Shown in pieces: positions 10,154 through 34,853 of a DNA stretch of 64,000 bases. A program made the translations under genes and the position numbers. This DNA comes from Ruegeria arenilitoris (GTDB taxonomy: Bacteria; Pseudomonadota; Alphaproteobacteria; Rhodobacterales; Rhodobacteraceae), in contig NZ_WQHP01000003.1 in NCBI RefSeq assembly GCF_013035315.1, positions 62,001 through 126,000 of the forward strand. Direction: 5' to 3'. Under the pieces are notes generated by a model that saw nothing but the letters and a program-made list of their open reading frames with translations, had not been told where the DNA came from and searched no databases. Positions within the stretch are counted from its first letter, which is position 1; each line of letters starts with the position of its first letter.

Positions 10154-11611
10154 ATGGTTCGGTCCATCATGATTCAGGGCACCGGCAGCAATGTCGGGAA
10201 ATCGGTTCTCGTGGCCGGTCTGGCGCGGGCCTTTACCCGGCGCGGACTGCGCGTCGCGCCGTTCAAACCGCAGAACATGTCGAACAATGCAGCTGTCACC
10301 GAAAACGGCGGCGAGATTGGTCGCGCACAAGCCCTGCAGGCGCGGGCGGCTCGACGCGCGACCCATACGGACATGAACCCGATCCTGTTGAAGCCGGAAA
10401 CCGATACCGGTGCGCAGATCATCGTGCAGGGCCAGCGGGCGGGCACCATGAAGGCGGGCGACTACCGCAAAGACAAATCCAAACTGCTGGGCGCAGCGCT
10501 GGAGAGCTTTGAACGCCTGTGCAGCGACGCGGATCTTGTGCTGATCGAAGGCGCTGGCAGCCCGGCCGAAACCAACCTGCGCAAGGGCGACATAGCCAAT
10601 ATGGGCTTTGCCTGCGCCGCTGGTGTGCCGGTCGTTCTAGTGGGCGACATCCACCGCGGCGGTGTGATTGCGCAGATCGTCGGAACTCAGGCGGTTCTGG
10701 ATGCGGAGGACCTGAGGATGATCCGGGGATTTGCCGTCAACCGGTTCAAGGGGGACGTATCCTTGTTTGACGAAGGTCGCGACGACATTGCCGCGCGCAC
10801 CGGGTGGCCTTGTTTGGGCGTTGTTCCGTGGTTTAACGACGCGTGGAAGCTTCCGGCGGAGGATATGATGGATATCCGTTCGCATTCCGGCGGTGCCTGC
10901 AAGGTGGTCGTGCCGCAGCTTGAGCGGATGGCGAATTTCGACGACTTGGACCCTCTGTCTGCCGAACCGGGCGTCACGGTCGAGATTGTCCCGGCAGGTC
11001 GCGCCCTGCCCGGCGATGCGGATCTGGTTCTGCTGCCGGGCAGCAAGTCAACGATCGGCGATCTGACCTATTTCCGCACCCAAGGTTGGGATGTCGATCT
11101 GTATGCGCATGTTCGGCGTGGCGGCCACGTTTTGGGCCTGTGCGGCGGCTATCAGATGCTGGGAAAAACCATCGCCGACCCCGAGGGTGTCGATGGTCGT
11201 CCCGGCACCGTCGAAGGGCTGGGGCTGTTGGACGTGGAAACTGTCATGGGTGGGCAAAAACATGTAACTCTCACCTCGGCGCGCGCGCTGGAGGGCGGAG
11301 AGCCGGTCTCGGGCTATGAGATTCACATGGGACGGACGCAAGGCCCCGACTGCGACCGTGCTTGGCTTGAGATTGACGGGCGTCCTGAAGGTGCGACCGA
11401 TGCCACGGGGCGTGTCCGGGGCAGTTACCTGCATGGAATATTCACTTCGGACGCCTTCCGCGCCAGTTATCTGTCGAAGCTGGGTGTAACGTCCGATCTG
11501 TCTTATGAAGACGGTGTCGAACAGACGCTGGACGCGCTGGCCGATCATCTGGAACAGACCATGGACCTGGACCGTCTGCTCGCACTGGCTGAAACGCCCA
11601 AAAGGGCCTGA
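10154..11611 (+). CDS. cobQ: Cobyric acid synthase
   Basis: This 485-aa amidotransferase adds four amide groups to adenosylcobyrinate a,c-diamide, using glutamine and ATP. The N-terminal P-loop-like [19 protein letters not shown] and [10 protein letters not shown] are typical of CobQ. The C-terminal glutaminase domain has [11 protein letters not shown] with the nucleophilic Cys, and [10 protein letters not shown] near the end. AGGAG at 10142-10146 supports ATG 10154; an in-frame extension to 10037 overlaps the divergent gene and is rejected. It lies 24 kb from the large cob operon in this window, so it is unlinked to that riboswitch. Confidence 0.95.
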
Positions 11612-11614
11612 GTT

Positions 11615-12382
11615 TTACTCGAGCTCTTGTTCGGCCAGGGCTTTGTAGATTTCGCGACGCACCATTTTGCGGACATTGCGAGTGATGCGTTCCCCAAGAA
11701 CGCCCTGCAATTCCTCGCGGACAACCTGTGCGATCATCTCGCGCAGCGCGTCTTCACCCATAGTTACAGCGTCATCCCGTTCGACTACGCCTTCAATATT
11801 TTGACCGGCGGGGTCAGCCGTAACCTGCGGGTCGCGCACAAAGGTGGCCTTGGTGGTGGCAACCGCCTCTTCCGGCTTTGGCTGAGGGGCCTCAGACGGG
11901 TCCGGTGCGGAATCGGCGAATTCTTTCTGGGCGCTGAATTCCAACGCCTTCGCCGGTGTGCCCGAGTAATCGTCTTCGCTGTCGCCATCCGGCTCCCATT
12001 GATCCTCGGTTCTGGCAATGGCTGCTTCCAGCGCTTCTATTTTGGCGCTCAGACTGTTGGTGGCATCCTTGGAGGGCTCGGGCGCTTCTGGTTCTTTATT
12101 GGCTGGGTCTTCACGATTCACGATGTCGCAGGCGCGCAGCAACATCGGTTTGACCGACGCATCAGCAGTATAGGTCTTTTCGGCTTCGGCCTCGTTTTCC
12201 GGCCCGTCCTGAATGCTTGACGTTCCGCCAACACGCAGCGCCTCGGTCAGGACCAATCGCCCGGGCTTGCGGGCGATTGACGGTGGCATCACGTCGGAGT
12301 TGTTCTGACCTTTTTCACCGACCAGCCGTTTGATCGAGGACAACACGTCCTCTACTCTGCCGTTCACGACTTTATCCGTCAT
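11615..12382 (-). CDS. PopZ-like (DUF2497-type) acidic protein
   Basis: The 255-aa protein has a short conserved N-terminal helix (RVEDVLSSIKRLV), a long acidic, proline-rich low-complexity middle, and a helical C-terminal block (LREMIAQVVREELQGVLGE then ITRNVRKMVRREIYKAL). This N-helix, disordered linker and C-terminal oligomerisation helix layout is that of PopZ, the polar organising protein of Alphaproteobacteria. The RLVLTEALRV motif after residue 40 is also seen in related roseobacter proteins, as far as I recall. The assignment is by architecture only. It lies immediately before tolC in the same direction's downstream side and converges on cobQ with a 3-base gap. Confidence 0.6.
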   Translation of the reverse strand: MTDKVVNGRVEDVLSSIKRLVGEKGQNNSDVMPPSIARKPGRLVLTEALRVGGTSSIQDGPENEAEAEKTYTADASVKPMLLRACDIVNREDPANKEPEAPEPSKDATNSLSAKIEALEAAIARTEDQWEPDGDSEDDYSGTPAKALEFSAQKEFADSAPDPSEAPQPKPEEAVATTKATFVRDPQVTADPAGQNIEGVVERDDAVTMGEDALREMIAQVVREELQGVLGERITRNVRKMVRREIYKALAEQELE

Positions 12383-12456
12383 TGTTCTCTACCGCTCTAT
12401 CCTCAGGATTGAGTGTAGCCAAACAAACCGGGTGTCACAACAGGTAGTATTGGCCG

Positions 12457-13875
12457 TTAGTCGCGGCGCAACGCTTTGAGAACACGATCCAGGTCCCGGC
12501 TTTGTCTGCTGACCTGAGCTGGCGCTTTCTTGACCAGGTTGTAGTACAGCGTCGGGTCATAGATCTGAACCGCCAGCCCCAAACGTTCAGCCGTCAGCAA
12601 ACCTTGTGCCTGCAACAGCTGATAGGCTGCGCGCGACCGCTCGATGCGCGAGGCAACCAGTGCCAGCTGCGCGTCCAGCAAGTCTTGCTGCGCATTCAGC
12701 ACGTCCAGCGTGGTCCGTGCGCCCAGCGTGGCCTCTTCGCGGATACCGTCAAACGCAACCTGCGATGCACGTACTCGTTCGGTCGACGCCCGCAAGCTGG
12801 CTGTCGCCGCCTGGAACCGGGCATATGCTTCGGTCACACCCTGCGTGATGTCTTTCTGTACGTTCAACAGGTTGGCCCGGGATGCGTCCCGCGTTGCCAT
12901 CGCCCGACGCACGTTCGCAGCCAGTCGGCCACCAGCGTAGATCGGCTGGTTGAAGTTCAGCGAGACCGATGCGTCTTCGATGTTGTCATCGTTGTCATAG
13001 CTTTCCGTGATGCCCGCATCTGCGTTCAGGCTGACGTTTGGCCCCAGGTTGGCGCGCTGCTGCGCAACGATCAGATCAAACGCACGCACCTGATGCTGCG
13101 CCGACAGGATGGCCGGGTGATTGCGCTGCGCCAGACTTACAGCCTGCGCCTCCGAGCTTGGCAAATTCGGCAGGCTCGGTTGACCCGCAGTGCGGCCCGG
13201 TGATTTGCCGACAGCGTTCACATATTCGGCCTGCGCTGTATCCAGGTTACCCCGTGCAACAGCCAGATCCGCCTGCGAGCTTGCAAGCTGAGCTTGCGAC
13301 AGTGCGACGTCAGTCCGTGTTACCTCACCCACATCAAACCTGTCCTGCGATGCGCGCAGTTCTTCGGCTGACACGTCGACGTTGTTCAGACGAATCTGTA
13401 CGGTTTCTTCCTGAAGAAGAACCTCAAGATAGGCGTTTGCACCGCGGAACAGCACCTGTTGCTCAATGTCCAGCAGGGTTTGCCGCGTCGAAAGCACAGT
13501 TTCCTGTGCGGATTGTTTGCCCAATATCGCCGCGCCGCCGTCGTACAGCAGCTGGCTTAGTGTCAAGCCGGTGAAAAAGTTATTTGGTTCGGTGCGTGTC
13601 ACCACGTTGTCGATGTTACGGCGGTTGTAGTCACTGCTGATCGCAACCGTCCAGTTGATGATCGGCCGCAGCGCCGACAGTGCGATTGCGACGTCTTCGT
13701 CCGCTGCCCGCAACAATGCCCGGTTCTGCTCTAGCAAACCACTTGTGTTATACGCGCCGATGAAGGCGTCGGTAATATTGTCGGCCCATGCCGCACGACC
13801 TGGTACGAAGCTGAGTGCGACCCCTGCAGTCAGCGCCAGCGCCTTGACCAGCTTTCCTCCCGCCATAGAACTCAT
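12457..13875 (-). CDS. tolC: TolC family outer-membrane efflux protein
   Basis: This 472-aa protein has a signal peptide (hydrophobic stretch ending FVPGRAAWA). The mature part is made of two copies of the TolC coiled-coil/strand repeat: DVALSQAQLASSQADLAVARGN in the first half and TLDVLNAQQDLLDAQLALVASR in the second. These form the outer-membrane channel and periplasmic tunnel for type I secretion or RND efflux. Length and repeat spacing are normal. It is followed by the PopZ-like gene 74 bases downstream and preceded by the pcm-like gene, all on the - strand. Confidence 0.93.
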   Translation of the reverse strand: MSSMAGGKLVKALALTAGVALSFVPGRAAWADNITDAFIGAYNTSGLLEQNRALLRAADEDVAIALSALRPIINWTVAISSDYNRRNIDNVVTRTEPNNFFTGLTLSQLLYDGGAAILGKQSAQETVLSTRQTLLDIEQQVLFRGANAYLEVLLQEETVQIRLNNVDVSAEELRASQDRFDVGEVTRTDVALSQAQLASSQADLAVARGNLDTAQAEYVNAVGKSPGRTAGQPSLPNLPSSEAQAVSLAQRNHPAILSAQHQVRAFDLIVAQQRANLGPNVSLNADAGITESYDNDDNIEDASVSLNFNQPIYAGGRLAANVRRAMATRDASRANLLNVQKDITQGVTEAYARFQAATASLRASTERVRASQVAFDGIREEATLGARTTLDVLNAQQDLLDAQLALVASRIERSRAAYQLLQAQGLLTAERLGLAVQIYDPTLYYNLVKKAPAQVSRQSRDLDRVLKALRRD

Positions 13876-13970
13876 AACGAAATCCTCTCAAATCAAAATT
13901 ACGCTGCCCTGCCGACAGTTTGCGTGTTTATGTTCAACTAATCAAGGCAGCAGCGCAAACTGCCGTCAAA

Positions 13971-14636
13971 CTATAGCGAAAATACACGGTTTGTGGAAAA
14001 TGCCTGTAAAATCGGTGCATTGGCGTTAAACGCGTCCCGCCATGTTACCCGATCGCCAGATTTGTGGCCGATGCGAACCGTTCCAAGCGCACCTTCGACG
14101 AAGAGGCACGCAATACGGCCGTGATCTTTGAGCTGCGCGATCAGCGTCTCGGGCGCATGCTCGACCCCGCCCTGGATCATTATGACGTCATACGGCCCAT
14201 GCTCTGCCGCGCCCTCTTCGAACGGGCCTACATGGACAATCGCGTTGTCCGCTTCGGCCTCCATCAGGACGTTCTGCGCCTCGGCGGCAAGGCTTTCGTC
14301 CTGCTCAACGGCAACAACCAGCTGCGCCATACGCGCGGCTACGGCGGTTGAATACCCCAAAGCCGGGGCGATATCCAAAACCGCCTCATCGTTCGATATG
14401 TTCAATATATCCAACATCTTGGCCAGTGTCCGCGGCTCAAGAAGGCACCGCCCATCGCCCAGATCCAGAACACCTTCGACATAAGCCGCCTCACGCTGTG
14501 CATCCGGCACAAAGTTCTCGCGCTTGACGGTTAGCATCGCGTCAATGATGGGAAATTTGGTAACGTCAGAAGGCCGTATCTGCGTATCGACCATCGTCCG
14601 GCGGCGGGCTGCGAAATCTGTCATTGGATCGCTCAT
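13971..14636 (-). CDS. Protein-L-isoaspartate O-methyltransferase family protein
   Basis: This 221-aa SAM-dependent methyltransferase-like protein starts MSDPMTDFAARRRTMVDTQI, a typical PCMT opening (methylated repair of isoaspartyl residues). The SAM-binding motif I is AVLDIAPALGYSTAVAARM; the usual GTGSGY core is altered to APALGY, which may affect activity. An AAGGGAAC ribosome-binding site supports ATG 14636 over the longer frame to 14711. Roseobacter PCMT-like genes are often beside tolC, which fits here. Specificity for isoaspartate is uncertain given the altered motif. Confidence 0.82.
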   Translation of the reverse strand: MSDPMTDFAARRRTMVDTQIRPSDVTKFPIIDAMLTVKRENFVPDAQREAAYVEGVLDLGDGRCLLEPRTLAKMLDILNISNDEAVLDIAPALGYSTAVAARMAQLVVAVEQDESLAAEAQNVLMEAEADNAIVHVGPFEEGAAEHGPYDVIMIQGGVEHAPETLIAQLKDHGRIACLFVEGALGTVRIGHKSGDRVTWRDAFNANAPILQAFSTNRVFSL

Positions 14637-14851
14637 TCTGTTCCCTTGGGTGATCAGGTTTTGCCACATCCTTGAAAAACCGGCAACGGCCCTGATGCGG
14701 AAACTTTTCAATCATCTCAGGATACAACGTCGCAACCAAAGCCGAAGTTGAAAACTGACCCGGAAATTTGCGCTCCCCCCTCTGGACGCCCCTGCCGAAA
14801 GCTGTTAAAACGCCTGTCACACCACAGCAAGTATTTGATTTTACTTGAAAA

Positions 14852-14925
14852 GGCGAGTTGGCGGAGTGGTGACGCAGCGGATTGCAAATCCGTGTACACC
14901 GGTTCGATTCCGGTACTCGCCTCCA
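14852..14925 (+). tRNA. tRNA-Cys (GCA)
   Basis: The acceptor arms GGCGAGT (14852-14858) and ACTCGCC (14915-14921) pair perfectly. The anticodon loop ATTGCAAAT places GCA at 14884-14886, and the T-arm GGTTCGATTCC is standard. The discriminator is T and an encoded CCA follows at 14923-14925. The 3' half from 14882 is duplicated at 32451-32494, so this tRNA is the attachment site of the island to its right, yet remains intact. Confidence 0.96.
14882..14925 (+). repeat. attL: 44-bp tRNA-Cys 3' half, left copy
   Basis: This segment runs from the anticodon loop to the encoded CCA. It is identical base for base to 32451-32494 and identity stops at both edges. With an integrase gene 236 bases away, this is the left junction of a site-specific integration event. 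Confidence 0.93.
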
Positions 14926-15161: not shown

Positions 15162-16553
15162 GTGAACAGACCCACGAGTACACTGAAGGCCGAGGCCCTT
15201 GCACTCATCGAAGCAGCCCTCGACGTGAAGTTCCGGGACGATGCCCTTCGCTCCGCGCTTCAGGCAGCGGCCGCCTTGGCCCAACCTCAGAGCGCAGCCG
15301 GTAGAAGCCATCTAGAGTATGAGAAACTTGCCCCAGGCGGGAAGTTGACTTGCAAGGCCAACCCGGGGCTTCTGATGCGTCATGGTCGCCGGGACGGGCG
15401 AGTCTGGTTCTTCCGCTACCGCAACGATGTTGGGTTGGAGAAAGAATTGAAGCTGGGCGCATTCCCCCGCGACCTCTCTGTAGCTGAAGCCCGAGTAGAA
15501 GCACAACGCCTACGGGAACTTCACAAATCCGGGCAGTCCCTGACCCTGACGGAACCTGAAATCACTTATACGATGATGGATCTCTGCGATCAGTACATCG
15601 CAGAATATGCACTGGGTGTTAATGCCCATACCGGGGAGCCAATCAAGCGGTCGGGCAAGGAAGACGCCCGACTCCTGCGACGTCACATTATCCCACATCA
15701 CGGCCAGACCCCTGCTACCGAGTTTGATGGCGACACCATTCGTAGCATTCTGGCGGCGCTTTCAAATAGCGCACCGCGCGAGGCCCAGAAGGTCCGGGCG
15801 GTTCTGTCGACAATGTTTAACGTCGCCTGCGGTCGAACGGCAAAGATCGCCTACCCCAACGGAGCATGGCTTCCGCAAGACCACCACAACCCAACCGATG
15901 GCGCGATGGCGCCCGCACACACGGCCAAGACCTTCCGCCCCGAAGCAGTCCAAATGAAGACCTTCTTGGAAGGATTGGAAAAAGAAGTTTACGGCGACGC
16001 CCTGCGCCTGCAACTCCTGACGATGACTCGCGTGGGCGAAGCTGCGCAAGCGGCATGGGCGGAAATCGATCTAAACAATGCCCTCTGGCATCTGCCGAGT
16101 GCGCGGGCCAAAAACAAACACGGATATACGATCCAACTTTCCAATCAAGCTGTGGCCCTCCTGAAGCGCATCAAGGATGCCCAGCCGGAAGGAACCGAGT
16201 TCGTATTCCCAGCCCCACATGATCACACCCGTCCCGTCGCCAAAGCCAATGCCATTCGCGGGGCATCACGCATCCGCAAGAACGCCCACCTTCCCGATGG
16301 CTTCTCCACTCACGCGTTGAGACATGCTGGGCTCACATGGCTGAAAGAGAACCTCTGCCCACTCGACGTGCGGAACGCGATCACCAACCACCGAACCAAA
16401 GCACAGAACGAAGTGGTCGATGGTGGCTACACCAAAACCGCAGACTTTAGTGATCTCTCTCGAGATTGGTTACAACGCTGGGCACACCATATCGACGCCC
16501 TGCAAGGTCAGAACGTTGTCAAATTGAACCCGACTCGGCTCTCGAGCAACTGA
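15162..16553 (+). CDS. int: Tyrosine-type site-specific integrase
   Basis: This 463-aa recombinase integrates and excises the island at tRNA-Cys. The N-terminal part (ARLRELHKSGQSLTL-like, PGGKLTCKANPGLLMRHGR) has the arm-binding features of the DUF4102/P4-type integrases. The catalytic residues are all visible: Arg290 (TMTRVGEAA), His384-x2-Arg387 (HALRHAGLTWL), His410 (ITNHR) and Tyr423 (DGGYTK). Hence it looks active. The start is a GTG at 15162. It is transcribed away from the tRNA into the island, the usual layout. Confidence 0.94.
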   Translation: MNRPTSTLKAEALALIEAALDVKFRDDALRSALQAAAALAQPQSAAGRSHLEYEKLAPGGKLTCKANPGLLMRHGRRDGRVWFFRYRNDVGLEKELKLGAFPRDLSVAEARVEAQRLRELHKSGQSLTLTEPEITYTMMDLCDQYIAEYALGVNAHTGEPIKRSGKEDARLLRRHIIPHHGQTPATEFDGDTIRSILAALSNSAPREAQKVRAVLSTMFNVACGRTAKIAYPNGAWLPQDHHNPTDGAMAPAHTAKTFRPEAVQMKTFLEGLEKEVYGDALRLQLLTMTRVGEAAQAAWAEIDLNNALWHLPSARAKNKHGYTIQLSNQAVALLKRIKDAQPEGTEFVFPAPHDHTRPVAKANAIRGASRIRKNAHLPDGFSTHALRHAGLTWLKENLCPLDVRNAITNHRTKAQNEVVDGGYTKTADFSDLSRDWLQRWAHHIDALQGQNVVKLNPTRLSSN

Positions 16554-16872: not shown

Positions 16873-17103
16873 ATGGATGCGATACACAAACACGACACCA
16901 CACCTTTCTTTGACGCTGCGCGCGATGAGTTCCTGCGCGACGCAACGGTAGCCGAAGCCCGCAAAATTATGGGCTGTGGCGCTACGGTATTGTACGCGAT
17001 GATCAATCGCAAAGAACTCAGTGCGTATAAGATCGGCAGCGCGACCCGCATCCGCAGAGCGTCGCTGAATGCGTTGCGCAATGTTCCTTTTGGGTCGGAA
17101 TGA
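16873..17103 (+). CDS. AlpA/excisionase-like helix-turn-helix protein
   Basis: This is a 76-aa DNA-binding protein. Its C-terminal half (TVAEARKIMGCGATVLYAMI, then a basic stretch and ATRIRRASLNAL) follows the winged-helix pattern of MerR-like excisionases and AlpA regulators. These direct integrase toward excision or activate it. A GAGGGG ribosome-binding site lies just upstream of ATG 16873. It is followed 6 bases later by the methyltransferase gene, forming an early operon. The long N-terminal charged extension is unusual for AlpA (about 65 aa). Confidence 0.82.
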   Translation: MDAIHKHDTTPFFDAARDEFLRDATVAEARKIMGCGATVLYAMINRKELSAYKIGSATRIRRASLNALRNVPFGSE

Positions 17104-17109
17104 ATAGAT

Positions 17110-17769
17110 ATGGACATCATCGACTTCAACCCGCAGCGCAACTGCACAGACAGTCCTGTCACCAGCCAAAAACGACCTGGCGGAACCCGCTTTGACCAAC
17201 AGTTCACACGCAGACCTGCCGATTTGTATCCGACCTATGACGCTTGCCATGTGGTCCATGCTCTCAAAGATTATCAGTGGCTTCCGCCACGGCTCTGGGA
17301 GCCACACTCAGGCGAAGGCCATCTGACCGACGCTTTGCGGTCCTACGGCCACGAGGTGTTTGAGTCCGACCTTTATCCCCGTCGCATAGGAACCAAGCAA
17401 CAAGACTTCCTGAAGGCGGCAGAGCCGCCGGAAGGCATCGGTGCGATTGTAATGAATCCTCCGTTCAATGCGATTGACGCCCACCTGACGCATGCGCTGT
17501 CGCTAATGATGCCCTTGGGCGGTGTCGTTTGCCTTCTCTGCCGATCTGACTGGGCATTTGCCGCTAAGCGCGAAGAGTTTTTGACCCGAGAAGATCATGC
17601 GGGAGAGATTTAGTTGCTATGGCGCCCGCGATGGGTGCCGGTAGACCAGACTAAGCATCAGGGTCGTTACAATTACTGCGTACAGCTTTGGGACGCATCC
17701 CCATTCGCCCCTCCCACCGGAACGAAGATAATCGGTACGGGACGCAAGCAGAGGGAGCCGAAAGAATGA
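17110..17769 (+). pseudogene. DNA adenine methyltransferase-like gene split by an in-frame amber codon
   Basis: The frame starts at 17110 and encodes a phage-type DNA methyltransferase. It has motif I-like sequence (LWEPHSGEGHLTDALRSYGH), and the catalytic motif IV MNPPF near residue 118. At 17611-17613 a TAG interrupts at residue 168 (HAGEI then stop). The same frame then continues with no shift through LLWRPRWVPVDQTKHQGRYN and NYCVQLWD, typical of the C-terminus of this family, to TGA at 17767-17769. So a single nonsense change, not a frameshift, breaks the gene; the truncated 167-aa product keeps motif IV but loses the end. Amber suppression or a sequencing error are alternatives. Confidence 0.75.
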
Positions 17770-18014
17770 GATACCTTACACATAGCCTGCGCATTAAATC
17801 GCAGCTTTCAAACGCCAGAGCCTTTGGACGAATTTTGGAGTGTGCAACAATCGCTGCGATTGAAGGCGCTGCTTCGCATGGATGGAGCGAAATGGGCTCA
17901 CGGTCGGACAGCCCAAGCCTTAGATCGCGGTCGAACACCACAACCCCTACGCAAACCTCATTTCAATCGGCTGATTTGCCGAAACCCGAATTCTCAGTAG
18001 GTGTAGTCACATGA
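17766..18014 (+). CDS. Small hypothetical protein coupled to methyltransferase and helicase genes
   Basis: The ATG at 17766 overlaps the TGA of the methyltransferase frame (ATGA), and its own TGA at 18012-18014 overlaps the ATG of the helicase at 18011 (ATGA again). This chain of coupled starts supports a real 82-aa gene (MRYLTHSLRIKSQLSNARAF at the start, a serine/threonine-rich end). I see no known domain. If the amber codon upstream blocks ribosomes, coupling to this gene would be lost too, unless it has its own initiation signal. Confidence 0.55.
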   Translation: MRYLTHSLRIKSQLSNARAFGRILECATIAAIEGAASHGWSEMGSRSDSPSLRSRSNTTTPTQTSFQSADLPKPEFSVGVVT

Positions 18015-20770
18015 CCGACCAGAACGAGAAAATGCCGTCGAATCCGGGCGCTCGCAAAATTCTTGACCACCGCGGCATCGAATTGGTCGTGCTGGAAAAG
18101 ACGGATGGTCTACCTTTCACCAAAACAATCCGGCGGGAAAATTCCGGGGGAGACTGGCAGTCCGAGCAAGCCCCGAAAGCACTATCTTATATCAACGCCA
18201 AGCGCGTGAAGCTGTCTGAGACGGATACGCTTGCCGACGCCGCGCGCATCATCAAGGGCCTGAACAAGTTTCAGGCTCTGTCGATGGGGCGGCTTCCAAA
18301 GGGTGTGCCTGATGACACAGACGTGCCTGTCGTTCTTCAGGGGACGCAAGGGACTGGGGAACACGGTCGGGACTACGTCCACCGCACGGCGGAGGATTTC
18401 GCCTACGCAACGGGTGTACCGGCGCTTCAACCTTTCGACTTCGACGAAAAGTCATACCCGAGGCACATAAGGGACCGGGTGAAGGCGCTGGGTGGGCCGT
18501 GGGAGGCCGTCTGCCATGCCGTGCCAGAACTAAAGGACGTGGAGGTTTTGCGCCGCCCCAGCACGTCTTCCGGTATCATCGACAACCGGGATGGTGAGAC
18601 TTACCCCGGCGGCGGTGAGCATGCATACGTGGTCCTGTCCGACGGTCAAGACGCAGAGCATTTTATGAAGACTGTTCGGGACCGACTTTGGGAGGCGGGA
18701 CTTGGGTATGCCCGGGTTGTTGGCGGTGGTCGCGCTTTGAAGTGGTCCATTATTGACCATACAATATGGATGCCGCAGCAACCGATTTATGAGGCCCCGC
18801 CGACATTGGATCCTGCGGAGCATCTGAAACAGACCGGACGCATGGGACAGCTTCAGCGTGGCGCGGTGAAAGTCTTCGACGTGAAGACCCAACTAAAAGA
18901 AGCTGCGGCGGGCAAGGTCGCGCAACTTTGGGACGCGGCGGTGGCTTCATCAGAGATTCAGGCCGAGATTACGCGCCGCAAAGATAAATGGGTCGCGGAA
19001 CGCGCCCAGAGCCACGGCGTGACCATTGCACAAGCACAGGCATCGCTGGCTTTCATCATGGAGTACCGCAAGCTGGACTTGGCGGAACAACTGATACCGC
19101 TGAACGACAGCAAACTGGGTAAGCCGACAGTTCTGGACGTGCTGGAAAACCTAACTTCGTGGGATGGAGTCCCGATTGCCGATCCGATTGAGGGACCGGG
19201 CTACGGACGCCAGACTGCCAAGATATATGCAAATGCCGCTGTCGGTCGTCCCAAGATCAATTCCAAAGCCCACGGCGGCATTCTTTACGACATGAACGAC
19301 TACGCAGCGGAGGACATTGCGCGGGCCGTTCAGGGCGGACTGGACCTCGACCGTGTGGTTCGTGTGCTGGGAGTGCCGCAGGGGGTCGTGACAGAGGCTC
19401 TGGCGCTACTGGTCGGACGCGGTGTGTCCGTGAATGCCCGGGCCAAGGAGCAGGCTCTGCGGCGCTCACAGGTGGAAACCATTGCACGCGCGGCGCAAGC
19501 CGTTGTGGAGTTCGGCGAACAGCCTTTGCCGGGATTCGATGCGCCTGACCCCGCGCATCTGGACGGGTTGCGCAAGATTGCGGCGAAGCAAGAGCCCGAA
19601 GGTGCGCCGCTTTCTGTGGGCGAGTGGCTGGGGGCGCAGAAAGCGCGGCTGGCCGAGGCAAACCGGGCATTGGTTGCTTTAGGGACCGGTACTGCGGATG
19701 GATTGTCCAGCACAGACAAAGGCGCGTATGGCCCGCTGGGCGTCCAGAGCATGGCGGATTTCATAGACAGCGTTAAGCCCCGCAAATCGGTGGTGAAGCC
19801 GTTAGGCTGGTATTGCCAGACCGTGAACGCGGTGACTGCCAACCCAAATGGCGGCAAGACGGCCATTGCGTTGGAAGTGGCGTTTGCAGTGGCACTGGGC
19901 GAAGTGTTTCACGGGCGGCAGTTGGAACCGATGCCCGTCTTGTATTTCGCGGGGGAGAATTACTCGGACGTGCGTGCGCGGATTGTGCTGATGTGCCTCG
20001 AACGCGGGATCGACCCGAGGAACGTCCCAATTGATATTCGTAAAGGCGGTTTCAGTTTCGCAGACCACGCCGAAAAGGTTCTGTTCTACACCAGCCAGAA
20101 AAACTACGGGCTAATTGTGGTGGACACGCTGGCAGCGCATTTCAGCGGTGAAAGCGAAAACGACAACACACAGATGCAGCGGTACTTCGACAGCTTCGGC
20201 AGGGTCGCCAACGGCCCGGGCAATCCTGCGGTGGTGGTGCTGGCCCATCCCTCTGCTGAATGTGCCAAGTTGGAACCGCAGCGGCGGCTTCGGGAAATGC
20301 GTCCGCGTGGTGCGTCTTCCTCTTGGGGCGCGATTGACAGCAACCTGAATGTTGCAGTGCTGCCGGGCGGTATCGTTCAGGCGCATCTCAGCAAGCGCCG
20401 GTCCAAACCCGTGCCGGACGTATATTTTCGCCTGAAGCCTTTGTCCGACCCATCCGTGATTGATGGGGACGGGGATGTTGAAGAAAGCGTCCGGGCGGAA
20501 CCTATGACGCGAGGTCATGCACAGTTCGCCGCTGATGATCTAGGAACGCGCATTTTGAAAGAAATTCAGAAAGACGCGGCGGTGTCTGTCAGAGGGCTCA
20601 CGGATGCCCTTGCGGCGGATGGACAGAACGTTGCGCGCGGGACAATGCAGAACAAGTTGAACGATCTGCGAGAGGACGGACTGATTGATGTGACCGGCAA
20701 GAACCGCACCGTCCGCCGGTTCTTGACGCAGGCCGGTCAGGCGCGGTTGGACGAAGTAGACGAGTTTTGA
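18011..20770 (+). CDS. Primase-helicase-like replication ATPase (RepA-like AAA)
   Basis: This 919-aa protein probably replicates the excised element. The N-terminal third (around residues 180-265: STSSGIIDNRDG, GGGEHAYVVLSDG, then VVGGGRALKWSIID) resembles archaeo-eukaryotic primase-type domains of mobile elements. The C-terminal part is a RecA/RepA-like hexameric helicase ATPase: Walker A NPNGGKTA with Lys616, and Walker B YGLIVVDT with Asp705. The extreme C-terminus (ISVRGLTDALAADGQN-like, TMQNKLNDLREDGLI) reads as a winged helix. It overlaps the preceding small gene by 4 bases. The primase call is by motif memory and less secure than the ATPase. Confidence 0.82.
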   Translation: MTDQNEKMPSNPGARKILDHRGIELVVLEKTDGLPFTKTIRRENSGGDWQSEQAPKALSYINAKRVKLSETDTLADAARIIKGLNKFQALSMGRLPKGVPDDTDVPVVLQGTQGTGEHGRDYVHRTAEDFAYATGVPALQPFDFDEKSYPRHIRDRVKALGGPWEAVCHAVPELKDVEVLRRPSTSSGIIDNRDGETYPGGGEHAYVVLSDGQDAEHFMKTVRDRLWEAGLGYARVVGGGRALKWSIIDHTIWMPQQPIYEAPPTLDPAEHLKQTGRMGQLQRGAVKVFDVKTQLKEAAAGKVAQLWDAAVASSEIQAEITRRKDKWVAERAQSHGVTIAQAQASLAFIMEYRKLDLAEQLIPLNDSKLGKPTVLDVLENLTSWDGVPIADPIEGPGYGRQTAKIYANAAVGRPKINSKAHGGILYDMNDYAAEDIARAVQGGLDLDRVVRVLGVPQGVVTEALALLVGRGVSVNARAKEQALRRSQVETIARAAQAVVEFGEQPLPGFDAPDPAHLDGLRKIAAKQEPEGAPLSVGEWLGAQKARLAEANRALVALGTGTADGLSSTDKGAYGPLGVQSMADFIDSVKPRKSVVKPLGWYCQTVNAVTANPNGGKTAIALEVAFAVALGEVFHGRQLEPMPVLYFAGENYSDVRARIVLMCLERGIDPRNVPIDIRKGGFSFADHAEKVLFYTSQKNYGLIVVDTLAAHFSGESENDNTQMQRYFDSFGRVANGPGNPAVVVLAHPSAECAKLEPQRRLREMRPRGASSSWGAIDSNLNVAVLPGGIVQAHLSKRRSKPVPDVYFRLKPLSDPSVIDGDGDVEESVRAEPMTRGHAQFAADDLGTRILKEIQKDAAVSVRGLTDALAADGQNVARGTMQNKLNDLREDGLIDVTGKNRTVRRFLTQAGQARLDEVDEF

Positions 20771-20796
20771 TGCCTGGCCTTACCTGCAAAACACGG

Positions 20797-21005
20797 ACTG
20801 TTCAAATTCCAATACTACATCCTTCGAATTTTTGGACAGTCCACCTAGGGGAGGAAACTTTAGGTTTCCCTCTAGGGACACTGTCCATGCGTGAACACCA
20901 TATTTTTATGGCTCAAATGGGTAGAACCCGGCATTTGGACAGTCTTTTGGACAGAACACGAACAGCGCTTCTCAAAGTCAGCAAGAAGAAAGCCGTTTGG
21001 ACAGT
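20797..21005 (+). repeat. Iteron-like TTTGGACAGT repeats with long hairpin; candidate origin
   Basis: Immediately downstream of the helicase gene, TTTGGACAGT occurs exactly at 20831-20840, 20934-20943 and 20996-21005, and with one change at 20946-20955. On the other strand it occurs at 20797-20806 (one change) and 20880-20887 (core TGGACAGT only). The copies at 20831 and 20880 form the ends of a 54-base imperfect hairpin whose arms contain CCTAGGGGAGG and CCCTCTAGGG. Beside a replication ATPase, this arrangement fits an origin with initiator binding sites, or a set of operators. It does not encode an obvious protein. Confidence 0.6.
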
Positions 21006-21269
21006 CGGAGACACTAACCTTAGGTTGGCTACAGTTCAGTCGCAGATCAGATACACAAAGTTCCTTGGTCATAGACGGCTGCCAACTGAAAACTGACAGC
21101 TCCGAACAGACTGGACGATCTATAGTATCCTGAAGTCCCGTAAACCGATCAGAATACTTGAAATTTCCAATCCCTCCTCCGGCACATGCAATGGCGCTTC
21201 GACCCCGCAATGTGGCATACTCCAAACAACAGGCAATCACACATAGCGACGCCATAAACAGAGAAAGGG

Positions 21270-21740
21270 ATGAGTGAGGCAATAACGGTGTCTAAGAACC
21301 CCACAGCCGCCCCCAAGCGGACCCCGCATCCCAACACCCTGCGGGCCTTGGAAGAAAACCGGCGCAGGACCCAATTCGGCGGGCCTGACTCGCCAGCGAC
21401 CTGTGCCCGCGACACCTGTGGCAGAGCCGCATGGGGCAAATCTCCGGGCGGTTTCTGCTGGTATCACTCAGGCAACGTCAAAGAAAAACGGGAACCGCGC
21501 ACCTCCGAAAACGGAAAGAAGAAGCGCGAACTGAATCGATCCCGCAAGATGGCCCGCAGAGACCTTGACCATGAGCCACCGACTCCTCAAGAACTGCGCT
21601 TTGCGGCAAACATGGTCCCGAAGCTGAATGACCCTTACGACAGGCCCAGACTGGAAATGATTGTGCGTGATGTTTTTCGAAACCGCATCGACCACAGGTC
21701 CTACCGCGCCCATCTAGAGTTGCTGTTGAACCGATCCTAG
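21270..21740 (+). CDS. Hypothetical basic protein with Cys/His cluster
   Basis: This 156-aa, strongly basic protein has a CARDTCGRAAWGKSPGGFCW cluster followed by YHSG. Three Cys and one His are suitably spaced for a small zinc site. A Lys/Arg-rich segment follows (TSENGKKKRELNRSRKMARR), then a helical C-terminus. Such proteins occur in phages and satellites, sometimes next to terminase genes, but I do not recognise a named family. GAGAAAGGG precedes the ATG. It is the last + strand gene of the element's left module. Confidence 0.65.
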   Translation: MSEAITVSKNPTAAPKRTPHPNTLRALEENRRRTQFGGPDSPATCARDTCGRAAWGKSPGGFCWYHSGNVKEKREPRTSENGKKKRELNRSRKMARRDLDHEPPTPQELRFAANMVPKLNDPYDRPRLEMIVRDVFRNRIDHRSYRAHLELLLNRS

Positions 21741-23304: not shown

Positions 23305-24426
23305 CTATTTTCGATTCGAGTATGGGCGATCAGTGTTCGCTGCGTTGCAGTCAACCAAAGCGCTATCACCATGGAAGACTTTTGCTACATCGGGTGCAGC
23401 CATGCCGCGCGAGAGCGCGCCATACTTCATTCTCAGCTTCACCTCGCCACCAGGGCGAAGCAGCCAATTGGTGTTTTCTACAACGATATGATCACTGGTG
23501 GCTCCGACGAACGTGACGCCAGCAGGGAATATTAGACCCGCCGCATCAGTGTCCTGGAGTCCGATCGCAAGGATCGACCGAGTATTCGAAGGACTGTCTA
23601 AAGTCACACACTGCATTGAAGGTATAGGATAATTCATTTGCAAGGGATTTGGATTTGATTTGGTCTTCGTTTCGATCACTTCCGCCCAAAGCGTAAAAAC
23701 ATCTGTGTAAAGCCCGTCGATCGCGTATCCCGAAACGGGATCGGTACCCAGCAGGATGGCCTCACCCAGACGCAGGTTGTTGATCTTTCCGGTCGCCCCC
23801 TTGCCAAGCGCCCATGGCAAACTGGCAGAGCCGCCGCCTGACACTGTTTCCAGAGCGGGTCCACTTGCAAGTTCGGTGTCGGCGGCAAGCGACGAAAGCA
23901 ATTCCATTGCCCCTGCAGAGGGTGCCACATGACCCAGACAGGCAAAATTTGCGCCAATCCCCTTCAGAGAAATCCCTTCCATTCTAAGAATTTGAGACAC
24001 AGTGCTTTCAAGGTGTTCAGGCAAGATGCCATCCCGCATATCCCCCATTTCCACCATCAGGATAATATTGTGAGTAATGTTCTTCCCCAGCGCCTCGATG
24101 GCCAGGCTGGCGATAATGTCCATCTCAGTGTTGAAGCTGACATCGCAGTTATCAAGGACTTGCGCGACCTGGCTCAGCATGGGCGTTCGGATCAAGGATA
24201 TGGAGCACGAGATTCCAGCATCGCGCATACGCATGATATTGCTGATCCGCGCGTCCGCCAGCCCTGTCACGCCACCTTCAAGCATAGCATTCGCAATCTC
24301 AGGATGACCGCAAACGGCTTTTGTCACACCTGTCACCGATATTCCGCGGGGTCTAAGGTGGTCGACCAGGAACCGTGTGTTGTACCGAATTTTGTCCAGA
24401 TCAACGTCGATACGCAGCTTGCTCAT
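23305..24426 (-). CDS. Alanine racemase-like PLP-dependent enzyme
   Basis: This 373-aa protein has the fold-type III PLP barrel: RIDVDLDKIRYNTRFL, then TGVTKAVCGHPEIA with the presumed PLP-lysine (Lys in VTKA). VEMGDMRDGILPEHL and GGGSASLPWAL, for phosphate binding, follow. It belongs to the YhfX/ornithine-alanine racemase group rather than classical Alr. It overlaps the DUF1611 gene by 4 bases (ATGA), so the two are made together. This suggests work on a D-amino acid, but which one is unclear. Confidence 0.85.
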   Translation of the reverse strand: MSKLRIDVDLDKIRYNTRFLVDHLRPRGISVTGVTKAVCGHPEIANAMLEGGVTGLADARISNIMRMRDAGISCSISLIRTPMLSQVAQVLDNCDVSFNTEMDIIASLAIEALGKNITHNIILMVEMGDMRDGILPEHLESTVSQILRMEGISLKGIGANFACLGHVAPSAGAMELLSSLAADTELASGPALETVSGGGSASLPWALGKGATGKINNLRLGEAILLGTDPVSGYAIDGLYTDVFTLWAEVIETKTKSNPNPLQMNYPIPSMQCVTLDSPSNTRSILAIGLQDTDAAGLIFPAGVTFVGATSDHIVVENTNWLLRPGGEVKLRMKYGALSRGMAAPDVAKVFHGDSALVDCNAANTDRPYSNRK

Positions 24427-25622
24427 TCAATCGTCGTAACACGTACGGGTTGCAGGCGCGGAAAGGCAGATAGAACCATATTCACCAAGTTTTTTGGAGG
24501 ACGGTTCAATGCGTCAGTGACCGGGAGATACAATTTGCAGTTGTAGTCTGTGATGGCCTTTGAAATCTCAACATCATTCATTCCTTCATGGTTGATCGTC
24601 ATGCCAATTACCTCTGTGTTCGCAAATGCCTCGATCAGGGTGATTTCATCGCAAGGGGCGGGCATAGTCATGTTGGGGAAATCACATCGACGTTTTCGTT
24701 TAGGCGCGTGTTGAAGAATAACTGCATGTGGCTGACTGCCTCGCAGAATGAAGGCTGATGTGCAAAAAGCCGGATGGCTTAGCGCGCCCTGGCCCTCGAT
24801 CACTATTACATCCGGGTGCTCACCCTCGGATGCCGCAACGACAGCGCGCTCAAGTTCGCCACAACAAAATTGCGGCGGCACCGAATCCATCGCGACACCA
24901 TACTTGGCGCCCTGCATCAAGCCAGTTTGGCCGGTGCTGACCAAAACTGTTTTGATCCCATGCGCGTTAAGTGCGCCGGTCAGGATTGTCGCGGTTGTAC
25001 GCTTTCCAATTGCACAATCGGTGCCGAACACCGCGATGCGGATCGCCTGGACGTCTCCAATACTGCCATCTAACAGGCGCAGGTCGGGATTTGGCCGCGG
25101 CTTGCGAATGTCGCGTATCGTGACATCGTGAATTTTGGCAAATCCGGCGAGCTCCTTGTCATCGCTAAGAAATTCATGCAGCCCACTGACGATGTTCATT
25201 CCGAGCGTTATCGCATCCAAAACAACTTCGCGATCCTCAAGGGACATTCTGCCGCTGGCCGGCGCCATTCCGTAAATAAAAGTGTCGGGGATCGTAGCTT
25301 CATTAGCGACGGCGGCATCAAGATCATCGAAGATGGGAACCTGATTTGCGATATTATCAAGCACTTTGCCACTGTCACAACCGCCATACGTGCTGTCGAT
25401 CACCGAAAGAACGCGATAGGCCTGTGAATGTCGAACGAGACCATTAGCCGTCTTGCCATCGATCTTTGCGAAGTTTCCTTCGCAATACACAATTGCAGTC
25501 GGTGTATCTGTCACGAGTGTCTTGCGGTGAAGCTCTGGAAAAACTGCTTGTTCAGGCGCCAGCTTTTGCGCGTCGCTGGCAATGAACTGCTTGGCATCCG
25601 ACGCAATGGGTACGGGTTTCAT
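24423..25622 (-). CDS. DUF1611 (DgcN-like) protein
   Basis: This 399-aa protein has the DUF1611 layout. Its Walker-type loop is VFGTDCAIGKRTTATIL near residue 198, followed by LVSTGQTGLMQGAKYGVAMD and IVIEGQGALSHPAF. DUF1611 proteins include DgcN, which acts in D-glutamate catabolism with a racemase partner, as I recall. The immediate overlap with a racemase-type gene fits a D-amino acid pathway. An AAAAAGGAAC ribosome-binding site precedes ATG 25622. It is island cargo, not core. Confidence 0.82.
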   Translation of the reverse strand: MKPVPIASDAKQFIASDAQKLAPEQAVFPELHRKTLVTDTPTAIVYCEGNFAKIDGKTANGLVRHSQAYRVLSVIDSTYGGCDSGKVLDNIANQVPIFDDLDAAVANEATIPDTFIYGMAPASGRMSLEDREVVLDAITLGMNIVSGLHEFLSDDKELAGFAKIHDVTIRDIRKPRPNPDLRLLDGSIGDVQAIRIAVFGTDCAIGKRTTATILTGALNAHGIKTVLVSTGQTGLMQGAKYGVAMDSVPPQFCCGELERAVVAASEGEHPDVIVIEGQGALSHPAFCTSAFILRGSQPHAVILQHAPKRKRRCDFPNMTMPAPCDEITLIEAFANTEVIGMTINHEGMNDVEISKAITDYNCKLYLPVTDALNRPPKNLVNMVLSAFPRLQPVRVTTIE

Positions 25623-25714: not shown

Positions 25715-26569
25715 TCACTGGTTCAGAACACACAGCCCTTCTGATCGATGATAGTTTTTGTGGCATTGCCACCCATTGCCGGATCGGTCGATATGGGCAT
25801 TTGCCGGTAGCTCGATTGCATTGCAGCGATCACCGGACGCCTCGTAGCCACGTTCGCATTTCCATCCAACTCCATGGATCGCGTCATCGTAGAAAGCATT
25901 TTCAGGCACAAAGACGGCATCGCACCGTCCGTCGCGCTCAAAATACCCACGCTCGCACGTCCAGGGACGCCCGCTGGTTGATGCGTTCAGAAAAGCGTTT
26001 TCCGGCACCGCTACTGCCACGCATGCTTCTCCGTCTTTTTCGTAGCCACGGTTGCAACGCCATGCAGATCCATAAGTGCTATTCGTCAGGTAAGCATTAT
26101 CCGGCACCACGATTTTCTGGCAGCTATCGTCTACTCTTGTGTATCCACGCAGGCACCGCCACCTCTCACCTGATGGATCGAGATATCCACCCTCAGGCAC
26201 AATCACTTCAGTGCATGAGGTGCCGCCAACTTCAACAAAGCCATGCATACATGCCCACCCTGAGCCATAGGTTCTGTTTGTGGGGTAGGCATTTCCCGGC
26301 ACGACAATGGCCACGCATTCTTCGCCTTTCAACCGATAGGACAAATCGCATTTCCAACCGTCGCCATACTTTTTGGGATGCGCGTTATCCGGGATCGAAT
26401 TTGTTTCGGCCGATGCGGGACTTGATGAGATAAAGGAGCCCGCCAAACTGCTGAAGACGACAACAAACAACGCAGCCATTAAGTGAGCGCAAAACCGGTA
26501 CTGATTTTTTCGATTTGCCCTGATGCAAACGGCGTTGTCCGAATGTTGAGTGATTGAGTTACGATCCAT
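25715..26569 (-). CDS. Secreted protein of seven Cys/Trp repeats
   Basis: After a hydrophobic export segment (residues about 29-55, ending SSPASAE), the whole 284-aa protein is seven tandem repeats of about 30-34 residues. The pattern is VPxNAY, a short spacer with YG, then WxCxRGY and a second Cys. Examples of the core are DGWKCDLSYRLKGEEC, SGWACMHGFVEVGGTSC, ERWRCLRGYTRVDDSC and SAWRCNRGYEKDGEAC. Each repeat has two Cys, so one disulfide per repeat is likely in the periplasm. I do not recognise a named function; an adhesion or carbohydrate-contact role is only a guess. Its start overlaps the end of the upstream small membrane protein gene by 11 bases. Confidence 0.8.
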   Translation of the reverse strand: MDRNSITQHSDNAVCIRANRKNQYRFCAHLMAALFVVVFSSLAGSFISSSPASAETNSIPDNAHPKKYGDGWKCDLSYRLKGEECVAIVVPGNAYPTNRTYGSGWACMHGFVEVGGTSCTEVIVPEGGYLDPSGERWRCLRGYTRVDDSCQKIVVPDNAYLTNSTYGSAWRCNRGYEKDGEACVAVAVPENAFLNASTSGRPWTCERGYFERDGRCDAVFVPENAFYDDAIHGVGWKCERGYEASGDRCNAIELPANAHIDRSGNGWQCHKNYHRSEGLCVLNQ

Positions 26570-32450: not shown

Positions 32451-32494
32451 TTGCAAATCCGTGTACACCGGTTCGATTCCGGTACTCGCCTCCA
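32451..32494 (+). repeat. attR: 44-bp tRNA-Cys 3' half, right copy
   Basis: This segment is identical to 14882-14925 (the anticodon loop to CCA of tRNA-Cys). The flanking bases differ at each edge. It lacks the 5' half of the tRNA, so it is a remnant and not a second tRNA gene. It marks the right end of the integrated element. Confidence 0.93.
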
Positions 32495-32537
32495 CTCCCT
32501 TGCAAAATCGTGTCAGTCGGCCCCGGTTCTCTGTGCG

Positions 32538-33494
32538 TCACACGGCCTCACGTCCCCGCGGAACAACTTCGTATCCGGCTTCTTCGGGTTCGTCGTCCTG
32601 CATTTCGGGCGGAAAGCCCGGCGCGCGGATGTCGAGGCCTGTAGCCTCTTCCAGACGTCGGATGATATTGGGAGACAGTTCACGTTCGCCAAAGCGTGCG
32701 ATGCCATCTTCGAAAATCTTGATCATCAGAGGGTTGATCTCCAATGGCACACCTGCGCGGTCGGCGACTTCTTGGAATAGGCCGATATCCTTCTTTACCA
32801 AGTCCATTGTAAACGAGATATCGCGCGATCCATTCAGGATGACTTGGCTTTCCGTTTCGTGAACAAAGGACGTACCGGATGAGATTTTGATCGCCTCATA
32901 GGTCGTGTTTAGGTCCATACCTGCCGCCTTGGCCGTCACCAGTGCTTCGGCGCAGGTGATCAGGTTTGCGGTGGCCAGATAGTTCGTCAAAACCTTCAAA
33001 ACTGATGCCGAACCCAGCTCACCCGTATGCAAGATGCGCCGCCCCATCGTGGTCAGAAATGGCAAAATCCGGTCGAAGGTCTCTCGGTCACAGCCGGCAA
33101 AGATCGAGATATTCCCCGTTGCGGCCCGGTGGCAACCGCCAGAGACCGGGCAATCCACCGCAGCACCGCCGCGTTCAATCACCATTGCCCCCAGTCGTTT
33201 GACCTCGGCCTCGTCGGTCGTGGACATCTCCATCCAGATTTTGCCCGGCCCGACCTCGGGCAGCATCTCTTGCATCACAGCGTCGGAAGCGGCGGGAGAA
33301 GGCAGGCAAGTGATGACCGCATCGCAATCGCGCATAAGCTGCGCTGGGTTTTCGGCTGCTTTGGCCCCCTTGGCCACAAAGTCCTGCACAAGGTCCGCGC
33401 TCAGGTCATGTACGGTCAGATCAACCCCATTGCGCAGCAGCGACCCCGATAGCTTTGCTCCGACGTTTCCCAACCCGATAAAGCCAACTTTCAT
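32538..33494 (-). CDS. NAD(P)-dependent oxidoreductase, 3-hydroxyisobutyrate dehydrogenase family
   Basis: From ATG 33494 (GGAGGG ribosome-binding site) the 318-aa protein begins MKVGFIGLGNVGAKLSGSLL, a Rossmann motif for NAD(P). VDCPVSGGCHRAATGNISIF is the substrate loop of the beta-hydroxyacid dehydrogenases, and the catalytic lysine region is SVLKVLTNYLATANL. It oxidises a 3-hydroxy acid, or reduces a semialdehyde; the substrate is not clear. It is divergent from the LysR gene, which is probably its regulator. Confidence 0.9.
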   Translation of the reverse strand: MKVGFIGLGNVGAKLSGSLLRNGVDLTVHDLSADLVQDFVAKGAKAAENPAQLMRDCDAVITCLPSPAASDAVMQEMLPEVGPGKIWMEMSTTDEAEVKRLGAMVIERGGAAVDCPVSGGCHRAATGNISIFAGCDRETFDRILPFLTTMGRRILHTGELGSASVLKVLTNYLATANLITCAEALVTAKAAGMDLNTTYEAIKISSGTSFVHETESQVILNGSRDISFTMDLVKKDIGLFQEVADRAGVPLEINPLMIKIFEDGIARFGERELSPNIIRRLEEATGLDIRAPGFPPEMQDDEPEEAGYEVVPRGREAV

Positions 33495-33602
33495 AATACC
33501 CTCCGGCGGCTGTGCATTGATTTGTTCGCAAGTATCCACATTGCGTTTTCAAAAATGAAACGAATAATAATCGAAATAATGACCAAAAATTATTGGTGAT
33601 AA

Positions 33603-34487
33603 ATGGATCGACTTCCCAACCCCGCATGGCTGCGCAGCTTTGAATCTGCCGCACGGCATCTGAACTTTACCACCACCGCGAAAGAGCTTGGCCTAACCCA
33701 GACTGCAGTGTCGCTACATATCCGATCTCTTGAGGCTGATCTGGGCCAGAAGCTATTCACTCGAAACGCGCGGCGGCTGGAACTAACCGAACTGGGCCAA
33801 TCCTATGCTTTGACCGTGCGACGTGCGTTGGGTGACATCGCCCTGTCCACCAACAGCTTGTTCGGCCCCGCCTCGCGTCAAACCCTGACGGTGAGGGCCG
33901 CGATATCTACAGCGACCTATTGGATTGCGGCTGAATTGCCAGATTTCATGGCGCGACACCCAGACATTCCCGTGCGTCTTGTGTCACACATCTGGAACGA
34001 CACAATCGCGCCCAAGGACGTGGATGTCGAAATTCGAATGGGCTACGGCGACTGGCCGGGCGTGACCTCGGAAAAGCTGACCGACGAAACGCTGGTTCCA
34101 GTTTGCCGATCCGGATCGCCTATTCCAGACCTGCAAGCGCTTCATGGCAGCCCACTGATTCACATCCTGGGCTACGAGGACAACTGGGCGCGCTACTTTG
34201 AAGCTCATGGATTGCCCCCGGCAGAGCGCGCGCCGCTGTGCTCGGTCGATACGTCCGTGGCAGCGCTGCAGCTGGTTATGGCAGGCGCTGGGTGTGCAAC
34301 GATCGTCGAGCGGTTCGCACGCAACGCTATTGCTAAGGGCGCTCCGATCCGGATCGCGGGCCCTGCGATTCCATTTGCGCAATCGCACTACCTGATTGCA
34401 GCTCCGGGAACCGGTCAGCCCTCGGCTGCAGCTGGGTTGTTTTGCGCTTGGCTGCGGGAACGGCTGACCTTGGATGCCGCTGGCTGA
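33603..34487 (+). CDS. LysR-type transcriptional regulator, GcvA-like
   Basis: This 294-aa protein has an N-terminal winged helix (RSFESAARHLNFTTTAKELG, LTQTAVSLHIRSLEADLG) and a type-2 periplasmic-binding-like effector domain. It resembles the GcvA/DsdC subgroup of LysR regulators. It is divergent from the dehydrogenase gene, with 108 bases between start codons, where it probably binds. The effector cannot be told from sequence. Confidence 0.9.
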   Translation: MDRLPNPAWLRSFESAARHLNFTTTAKELGLTQTAVSLHIRSLEADLGQKLFTRNARRLELTELGQSYALTVRRALGDIALSTNSLFGPASRQTLTVRAAISTATYWIAAELPDFMARHPDIPVRLVSHIWNDTIAPKDVDVEIRMGYGDWPGVTSEKLTDETLVPVCRSGSPIPDLQALHGSPLIHILGYEDNWARYFEAHGLPPAERAPLCSVDTSVAALQLVMAGAGCATIVERFARNAIAKGAPIRIAGPAIPFAQSHYLIAAPGTGQPSAAAGLFCAWLRERLTLDAAG

Positions 34488-34753: not shown

Positions 34754-34756
34754 AGC

Positions 34757-34796: not shown

Positions 34797-34853
34797 CCAT
34801 GCACAGACGTGGCCCGCATGAAACCCCGTCCCCCGCGAAGAGGATTTGGGGGG

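Follow-up and report, generated by a model that had tools for sequence, protein, structure and literature searches.

A cluster of six short repeats around a hairpin, at positions 20797-21005 of the 64-kb stretch of DNA analysed here (the window), is very probably the replication origin of an excised 17.6-kb island and would be used by an initiator encoded by the adjacent gene. Because the repeat motif and the hairpin apex of the window are without a close counterpart, the case for the window rests on position, clustering and family pattern. An origin with initiator sites had been the first option of the preliminary description, and it is supported by three points: where the cluster lies, the winged helix predicted at the C-terminus of the neighbouring protein, and the recurrence of this layout, with other motifs, in many helicase relatives.

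The cluster starts 26 bases past the stop codon of a 919-aa protein and contains the following features, with the individual iterons located by TTTGGACAGT search:

20797..21005, + strand: proposed origin, six iterons around a hairpin (TTTGGACAGT site search, hairpin arms, shuffle test)
20797..20806, - strand: iteron, 1 mismatch
20831..20840, + strand: iteron, exact; left end of the hairpin
20833..20887, + strand: 55-nt iteron-bounded hairpin, apex GGAAAC-TTTAG-GTTTCC (arm pairing, DNA folding)
20880..20889, - strand: iteron, 2 mismatches; right end of the hairpin
20934..20943, + strand: iteron, exact
20946..20955, + strand: iteron, 1 mismatch
20996..21005, + strand: iteron, exact

The orientation order from 20797 to 21005 is thus - + - + + +. 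Base for base, this agrees with the preliminary description, which had listed three exact and one near-exact + strand copies of TTTGGACAGT with two weaker inverted ones, and had seen two inverted copies as the ends of a hairpin, here placed at 20833-20887 with a length of 55 nt. An even spread of the motif over the chromosome, which the preliminary description had named as a finding against it, was not seen: 3 of its 10 exact copies in the 4.39-Mb genome lie in the cluster, and these are the only exact copies in the 64-kb window. Since TTTGGACAGT read backwards occurs 11 times in the same genome, the word itself is not rare, and it is the clustering here that is rare. The segment 20772-21271 holds 5 copies at ≤1 mismatch, a number that no 10-mer reached in 1000 dinucleotide shuffles of the segment (maximum 4); when 500-base segments were moved across the 64 kb in 100-base steps, 5 copies were reached by two segments over the cluster and by one at 2201. 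GC content over 20775-21024 is 0.40-0.52 with no single AT-rich core, and the hairpin is flanked by iterons on both sides. A blastn search of 20760-21280 against plasmids gave no match.

The hairpin has inverted arms of 19 nt that are 79% complementary. Folded as single-stranded DNA it reached -14.7 kcal/mol (z -4.46), and none of 200 shuffles was equally stable. Its energy was unremarkable beside the 3' ends of other island ORFs, 6 of 19 being as stable, in a comparison whose 50-nt test windows are too short for a 55-nt hairpin, and a 60-nt folding scan near the stop codon placed the most stable fold inside the gene and not at the iteron-bounded hairpin. The hairpin of the window was not picked up by a strict search that required arms ≥8 and a loop of 3-8; since 292 of 902 control windows did contain hairpins of this kind, the mere presence of a hairpin carries little weight. 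The exact 17-nt apex was found in 4 viral stretches, and the apex core was rejected as a shared sequence because none of the 4 carried a RepA-type ORF. The trinucleotide GTG occurs at 20891-20893, three bases past the hairpin base; at ssiA of RSF1010, the GTG proposed for priming likewise lies three bases past the hairpin. We take this match as a lead only, the chance of such a match within six bases being estimated at about one case in ten.

The island is 17.6 kb long and is inserted in a tRNA-Cys gene. The features needed to place the cluster within it are as follows:

14852..14925, + strand: tRNA-Cys(GCA), integration target (ARAGORN, Rfam RF00005)
14882..14925, + strand: attL, 44-bp exact direct repeat equal to the 3' part of tRNA-Cys (repeat search; empty site in 2 of 4 same-genus genomes)
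15162..16553, + strand: tyrosine integrase (Pfam PF00589, PF13356)
16894..17103, + strand: HTH_17 (AlpA/excisionase-like) small protein, segment tested (Pfam PF12728)
18011..20770, + strand: putative 919-aa replication protein (AAA_25; phrog_16593 primase; structure model; RSF1010 RepA match; winged-helix topology)
21270..21740, + strand: 156-aa basic protein, start 264 bases past the last repeat
32451..32494, + strand: attR, second copy of the 44-bp repeat (repeat search)

In two genomes (G022 and G009) the segments 11000-14925 and 32451-36000 of the window are contiguous over one 44-bp copy, which identifies the 17.6 kb as a precise insertion; the other two of the four same-genus genomes examined gave a right-side match only. 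In a search for kin of the island, the integrase was found at E ≤ 1e-80 in 1 of 54 genus genomes, namely that of the window. The gene order is integrase, HTH_17 protein, methyltransferase-like fragment, 919-aa protein, repeats, 156-aa protein and cargo-like genes. No relaxase was detected by Pfam among the scanned ORFs, which are part of the island's ORFs. The 156-aa protein had no match in Pfam, PHROG, NCBIfam or PADLOC at E ≤ 0.001 and none at E ≤ 1e-5 in 147 other genomes.

Several further genes of the island were recorded in passing. The frame of the methyltransferase-like fragment (17110-17613) appears to continue past an in-frame stop, and this gene may be broken. Two likely cargo genes at 23305-25622 encode a racemase-like protein and a DUF1611 protein, perhaps for amino-acid use; their best NCBIfam models, ornithine racemase and DgcN, respectively, were both below cut-off. 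A 284-aa protein encoded at 25715-26569 matched Pfam EGF_MSP1_1 above cut-off, which is odd in a bacterial island.

The ORF of the 919-aa protein is intact and joins a primase-like domain, a RepA-type helicase and a winged helix. Residues ~1-430 match the PHROG primase family phrog_16593 distantly and align with a protein (L053) that itself matches DNA_primase_S; across eight sequences, D143 and D145 do not vary. The domain had no Pfam or PDB profile match, and the label of archaeo-eukaryotic-type (AEP) primase is for that reason inferential; from the distant PHROG match and the conserved acidic positions we regard it as probable. Residues ~561-833 form a RecA-fold helicase (Pfam AAA_25). The HMM of the helicase family matched RSF1010 RepA (1g8y) at E 1.4e-23, with the next best match at 1.3e-9, and the helicase model (pLDDT 88.9) had its best fold match in the same structure (Z 22.7, rmsd 2.7 over 216 residues), followed closely by DnaB-type and Rad51-type folds (Z 21-22). 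By profile and predicted fold, RSF1010 RepA is the closest solved relative of the helicase domain. The last 85 or so residues (~834-919) were modelled as a winged helix of three helices, two strands and a helix, and the top Foldseek matches of this domain were weak matches to MarR/PadR winged helices (best E 4.8e-4, model pLDDT 71.6). Neither the whole protein nor the primase alignment had a match in PDB sequence searches. Searches of genome contigs and viral contigs returned no close relative of the 919-aa protein with which the motif and hairpin of the window could be compared for conservation.

More distant relatives were examined for repeats at the corresponding position. In this test, the commonest 10-mer (≤1 mismatch, both strands) was counted from -100 to +350 of the stop codon, with windows elsewhere in the same stretches, whose composition is only roughly shared, as controls. 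The first set came mostly from the same genus and family: 35 regions were fetched, two of which (L052 and L074) had no tblastn match, leaving 33 plus the window. With the window included, at least 4 copies were reached at 17 of 34 loci versus 51 of 902 control windows, and at least 5 copies at 12 of 34 versus 11 of 902. The phage and class sets were fetched after the first set and scored by the unchanged test. For the phage set, 14 loci were hand-picked among 60 listed of 804 records (L081 and L092 are near-duplicates); at least 4 copies were reached at 8 of 14 versus 8 of 154, and at least 5 at 7 of 14 versus 2 of 154. The class set, from other families, consisted of 20 of 50 places listed, the best outside the window's family with contig room, with G082 omitted as already used and the stop codon of L110 placed 6 bases too far downstream; here the counts were 8 of 20 versus 18 of 306 for at least 4 copies and 4 of 20 versus 2 of 306 for at least 5.

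The 57 RepA-type loci used below omit 11 of the 34 first-set loci (L048, L049, L050, L051, L053, L057, L058, L061, L062, L067 and L064): ten had their best match in the primase part, among them L058, which scored 4, and L064 has a short RepA-type ORF (262 aa) without iterons. Iterons were also absent at L049, L050, L061 and L062, where the best match lay in the primase part only. When each 50%-identity cluster was represented by a single RepA-type locus and the window was excluded, at least 4 copies were found at 23 of 45 loci versus 52 of 840 control windows, and at least 5 copies at 17 of 45 versus 10 of 840. That 28 of these 45 independent loci stay under 5 copies, and 22 under 4, counts against the reading as an origin. 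The repeat word is usually element-specific, and close pairs (L059/L060, L080/L082 and L081/L092) share theirs. A GGACA core with at least 5 copies, noticed after inspection of the data, occurred at 11 of 57 loci, one of them the window, versus 3 of 1086 windows. Relatives of the island that kept the gene and lost the repeats had been named in the preliminary description as a finding against it; relatives in fact often retain both the gene and the position of the repeats, though with a motif other than that of the window, and this fits element-specific initiator sites. As judged from these comparisons, many RepA-type helicase genes, those of phages included, are followed by the same layout of iterons plus a hairpin, built from other motifs.

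A second RepA-type helicase of 355 aa is encoded in the genome of the window (L076; G000:C19, about 395,989-397,044), with its own word CATCTCGCGC present five times around and after the stop codon; a long, nearly perfect hairpin lies beyond these copies.

Near-identical relatives differ in their sites in a concerted manner. The proteins of L055 and L065 are 94% identical, and 39 positions differ in the 170 bases past the stop codon. Each of the seven GATAC cores of L055, whatever its orientation and including those in the two hairpin arms, reads GAGAC in L065, whereas 18 bases at the hairpin centre are unchanged. When the two proteins were compared in blocks of 50 residues, the last two blocks were the least alike (82% and 87%; others 88-100%). 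A like motif shift around an unchanged hairpin centre separates L070 from L071, whose proteins are 74% identical. Both patterns are the trace that recognition by the C-terminal domain would be expected to leave, and they do not prove it. Closely related proteins with concertedly altered sites are also natural test cases of initiator-origin co-change. For the window, the C-terminal domain of the 919-aa protein is a more likely iteron binder than the 156-aa basic protein.

Iteron-bounded hairpins are common to some of the helicase relatives. Hairpin energy at the 57 RepA-type gene ends was lower than at 668 other ORF ends (p 3.6e-9; phages alone, p 0.02). A rule for the apex (CTNTAG or similar, with arms ≥5), chosen after inspection of the first set, was matched at 10 of 34 loci of that set versus 3 of 902 control windows (window included, one match inside a gene), at 5 of 14 versus 2 of 154 in phages and at only 3 of 20 versus 5 of 306 in the class set; the feature is not universal.

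We then searched viral contigs with DNA only, using three hairpin cores from L075, L070/L071 and L055/L065; the window's core was not among them. This gave 129 viral stretches, all of which were examined, and 108 carried a RepA-type helicase ORF. The core hairpin lay between -100 and +350 of a RepA-type stop codon in 103 of 129, and in 102 of these 103 it was 67-175 bases past the stop; the 103 proteins are not all independent and fall into 18 clusters at 50% identity. The remaining 26 stretches comprised 5 with the ORF at another distance and 21 with no RepA-type ORF, 8 of which were less than 500 bases from the stretch end. Among the rest of these 21, the hairpin might serve initiators of another type. 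Control searches with the same arms and altered loops returned 1 stretch for loop ATTT and 12 for GAAA, and none of these 13 hairpins was near a RepA-type stop, 5 of them lying within 500 bases of the stretch end, where a gene could be cut off.

Core A accounted for 79 of the 103, with 39 distinct arm pairs. The arms flanking core A vary yet remain complementary when offset by two bases: 157 of 266 cells were paired, whereas 1000 swaps of the arms gave 94.4 on average and never more than 122, and all four pair types occurred at the two inner positions; in the plain register there was no signal (120 of 468 cells paired versus 118.7 after swapping). The offset was spotted in the plain-register rows and then tested beside four others. 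As the arms of core A are also iterons, the pairing shows that inverted sites are kept in step and is by itself no proof of a DNA hairpin in the cell.

A search with the iteron pair of the window itself returned 31 stretches (2 viral and 29 genomic), one of which lay directly after a RepA-type helicase gene, with five copies. This is an Anaerolineae MAG (L142), in which an integrase, the RepA-type helicase, GGACAGT iterons and a DnaG-type primase follow in a row at 1220-4814; it is a possible replicative element far from the host of the window. The other 30 had no RepA-type gene by tblastn, and some were tandem repeats. Another of these 30 is an intergenic cluster in Alteromonas profundi (L150, 3566-3831), where seven GACTGTCC-like repeats run in both directions; none of the surrounding ORFs listed was recognised as a replication gene.

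The repeats could instead be an operator cluster, at which a repressor binds and controls the downstream genes; the replication protein, the HTH_17 protein and the 156-aa protein are candidates for it. Iteron initiators often autoregulate, which counts for such a role, as does the gene that starts 264 bases past the last repeat. Against it, a simple consensus scan found no sigma-70-like promoter in 20500-21400, and the stretch from 14 to 20.7 kb, which contains the starts of the integrase, HTH_17 and primase genes, has no TTTGGACAGT copy at ≤1 mismatch. Moreover, other RepA-type helicase genes are followed by like clusters, and the next genes differ among the phage records. On balance we hold an operator to be unlikely. 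A stable hairpin past a stop codon would also suit a transcription terminator or a 3'-end RNA element of the replication gene, with the repeats incidental; given that no T-run terminator and no Rfam match were found in the region, that four of the six repeats lie outside the hairpin and that relatives often have many direct copies, we hold this to be very unlikely. Packaging (pac/cos-like) and partition (centromere) sites can also consist of clustered repeats next to the gene for the protein that binds them, but the neighbour here is a primase-helicase and no terminase, capsid, ParA or ParB match was obtained among the scanned part of the island's ORFs, which makes such a site very unlikely.

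Under the preferred reading as an origin, the winged helix would bind the TTTGGACAGTC sites and load the helicase ring beside its own gene, and the ring would open the nearby duplex. The inverted iteron pair would then expose the hairpin as a single strand able to fold back, the primase domain would start a primer at or beside it, and host enzymes would extend the primers. RSF1010 divides comparable steps among RepC, RepA and RepB', which the island would unite in a single polypeptide.

The comparisons raise a broader proposal, which we consider evenly balanced between true and false: phages and islands with RepA-type helicases would form a widespread two-code class in which replication starts where the helicase gene ends, on its 3' side. 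The initiator's C-terminal domain would recognise an iteron that changes quickly, and this iteron would frame a hairpin whose core is near-constant in many members (e.g., ACACCCCTTTAGGGGTGT) and would be read by the primase or a common factor; the window would be a divergent member with its own core. We did not find such a class in print. If it is real, a change of iteron alone would give new incompatibility types with the hairpin staying shared. It also suggests where to look for the origins of phages and islands that are poorly known, namely just after the RepA-type helicase gene. The window itself offers a candidate small replicon for Rhodobacteraceae genetics, consisting of one gene and about 210 bases.

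Origins directly 3' of the initiator gene are already established for SaPI/PICI elements, as set out in parts of PMC6092414. For RepA-type helicases with an iteron-plus-hairpin layout, no report was found among the open PMC matches listed, most subscription papers being outside that search; the one match listed for the hairpin letters concerns condensin. In PICI/SaPI elements, the same parts of PMC6092414 describe an integrase, an AlpA-type regulator, a pri-rep gene and then an iteron origin, and the AlpA models used in a PICMI satellite search include HTH_17 (PF12728), according to a passage of PMC10803314. The island resembles them in its integrase, its AlpA-type regulator and an iteron cluster immediately 3' of a putative initiator gene. 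It differs in its RepA-type RecA-fold helicase, in the iteron-bounded hairpin and in the lack of a packaging gene among the scanned ORFs. The helicases of PICI/SaPI elements are of D5/AAA+ type, unlike the RepA-type helicase of the island.

For SCCmec, parts of PMC7581432 describe how the Cch2 helicase uses its C-terminal domain to bind direct repeats located downstream of the gene that encodes it, an origin at that place having been proposed from binding and unwinding data. Cch2, however, is a D5-family helicase, and its polymerase-type primase complex is separate. In the pRN1 replicon, as described in passages of PMC4234260, the single protein ORF904 carries an AEP primase, a helicase and, at its C-terminus, a winged helix, and an essential stem-loop of about 100 nt lies just 3' of the gene. 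The island has a comparable predicted one-protein domain set and a stem-loop ~60 bases past the stop codon, of 55 nt versus about 100 nt, whereas pRN1 has an SF3 helicase and no iterons in place of the AAA_25 RecA-fold RepA-type helicase and iterons of the island.

In RSF1010, passages of PMC4234260 and PMC4434180 report that RepC binds the iterons, RepA unwinds and RepB' primes at ssi stem-loops. The island shares with it a RepA-type, putatively hexameric helicase by profile and fold, iterons plus a hairpin, and probably a primase of the AEP class. RSF1010 is a plasmid with three separate proteins (RepA, RepB' and RepC) and two ssi sites, whereas the island is integrated, encodes a single 919-aa ORF, has one iteron-bounded hairpin and carries its proposed origin directly 3' of the gene.
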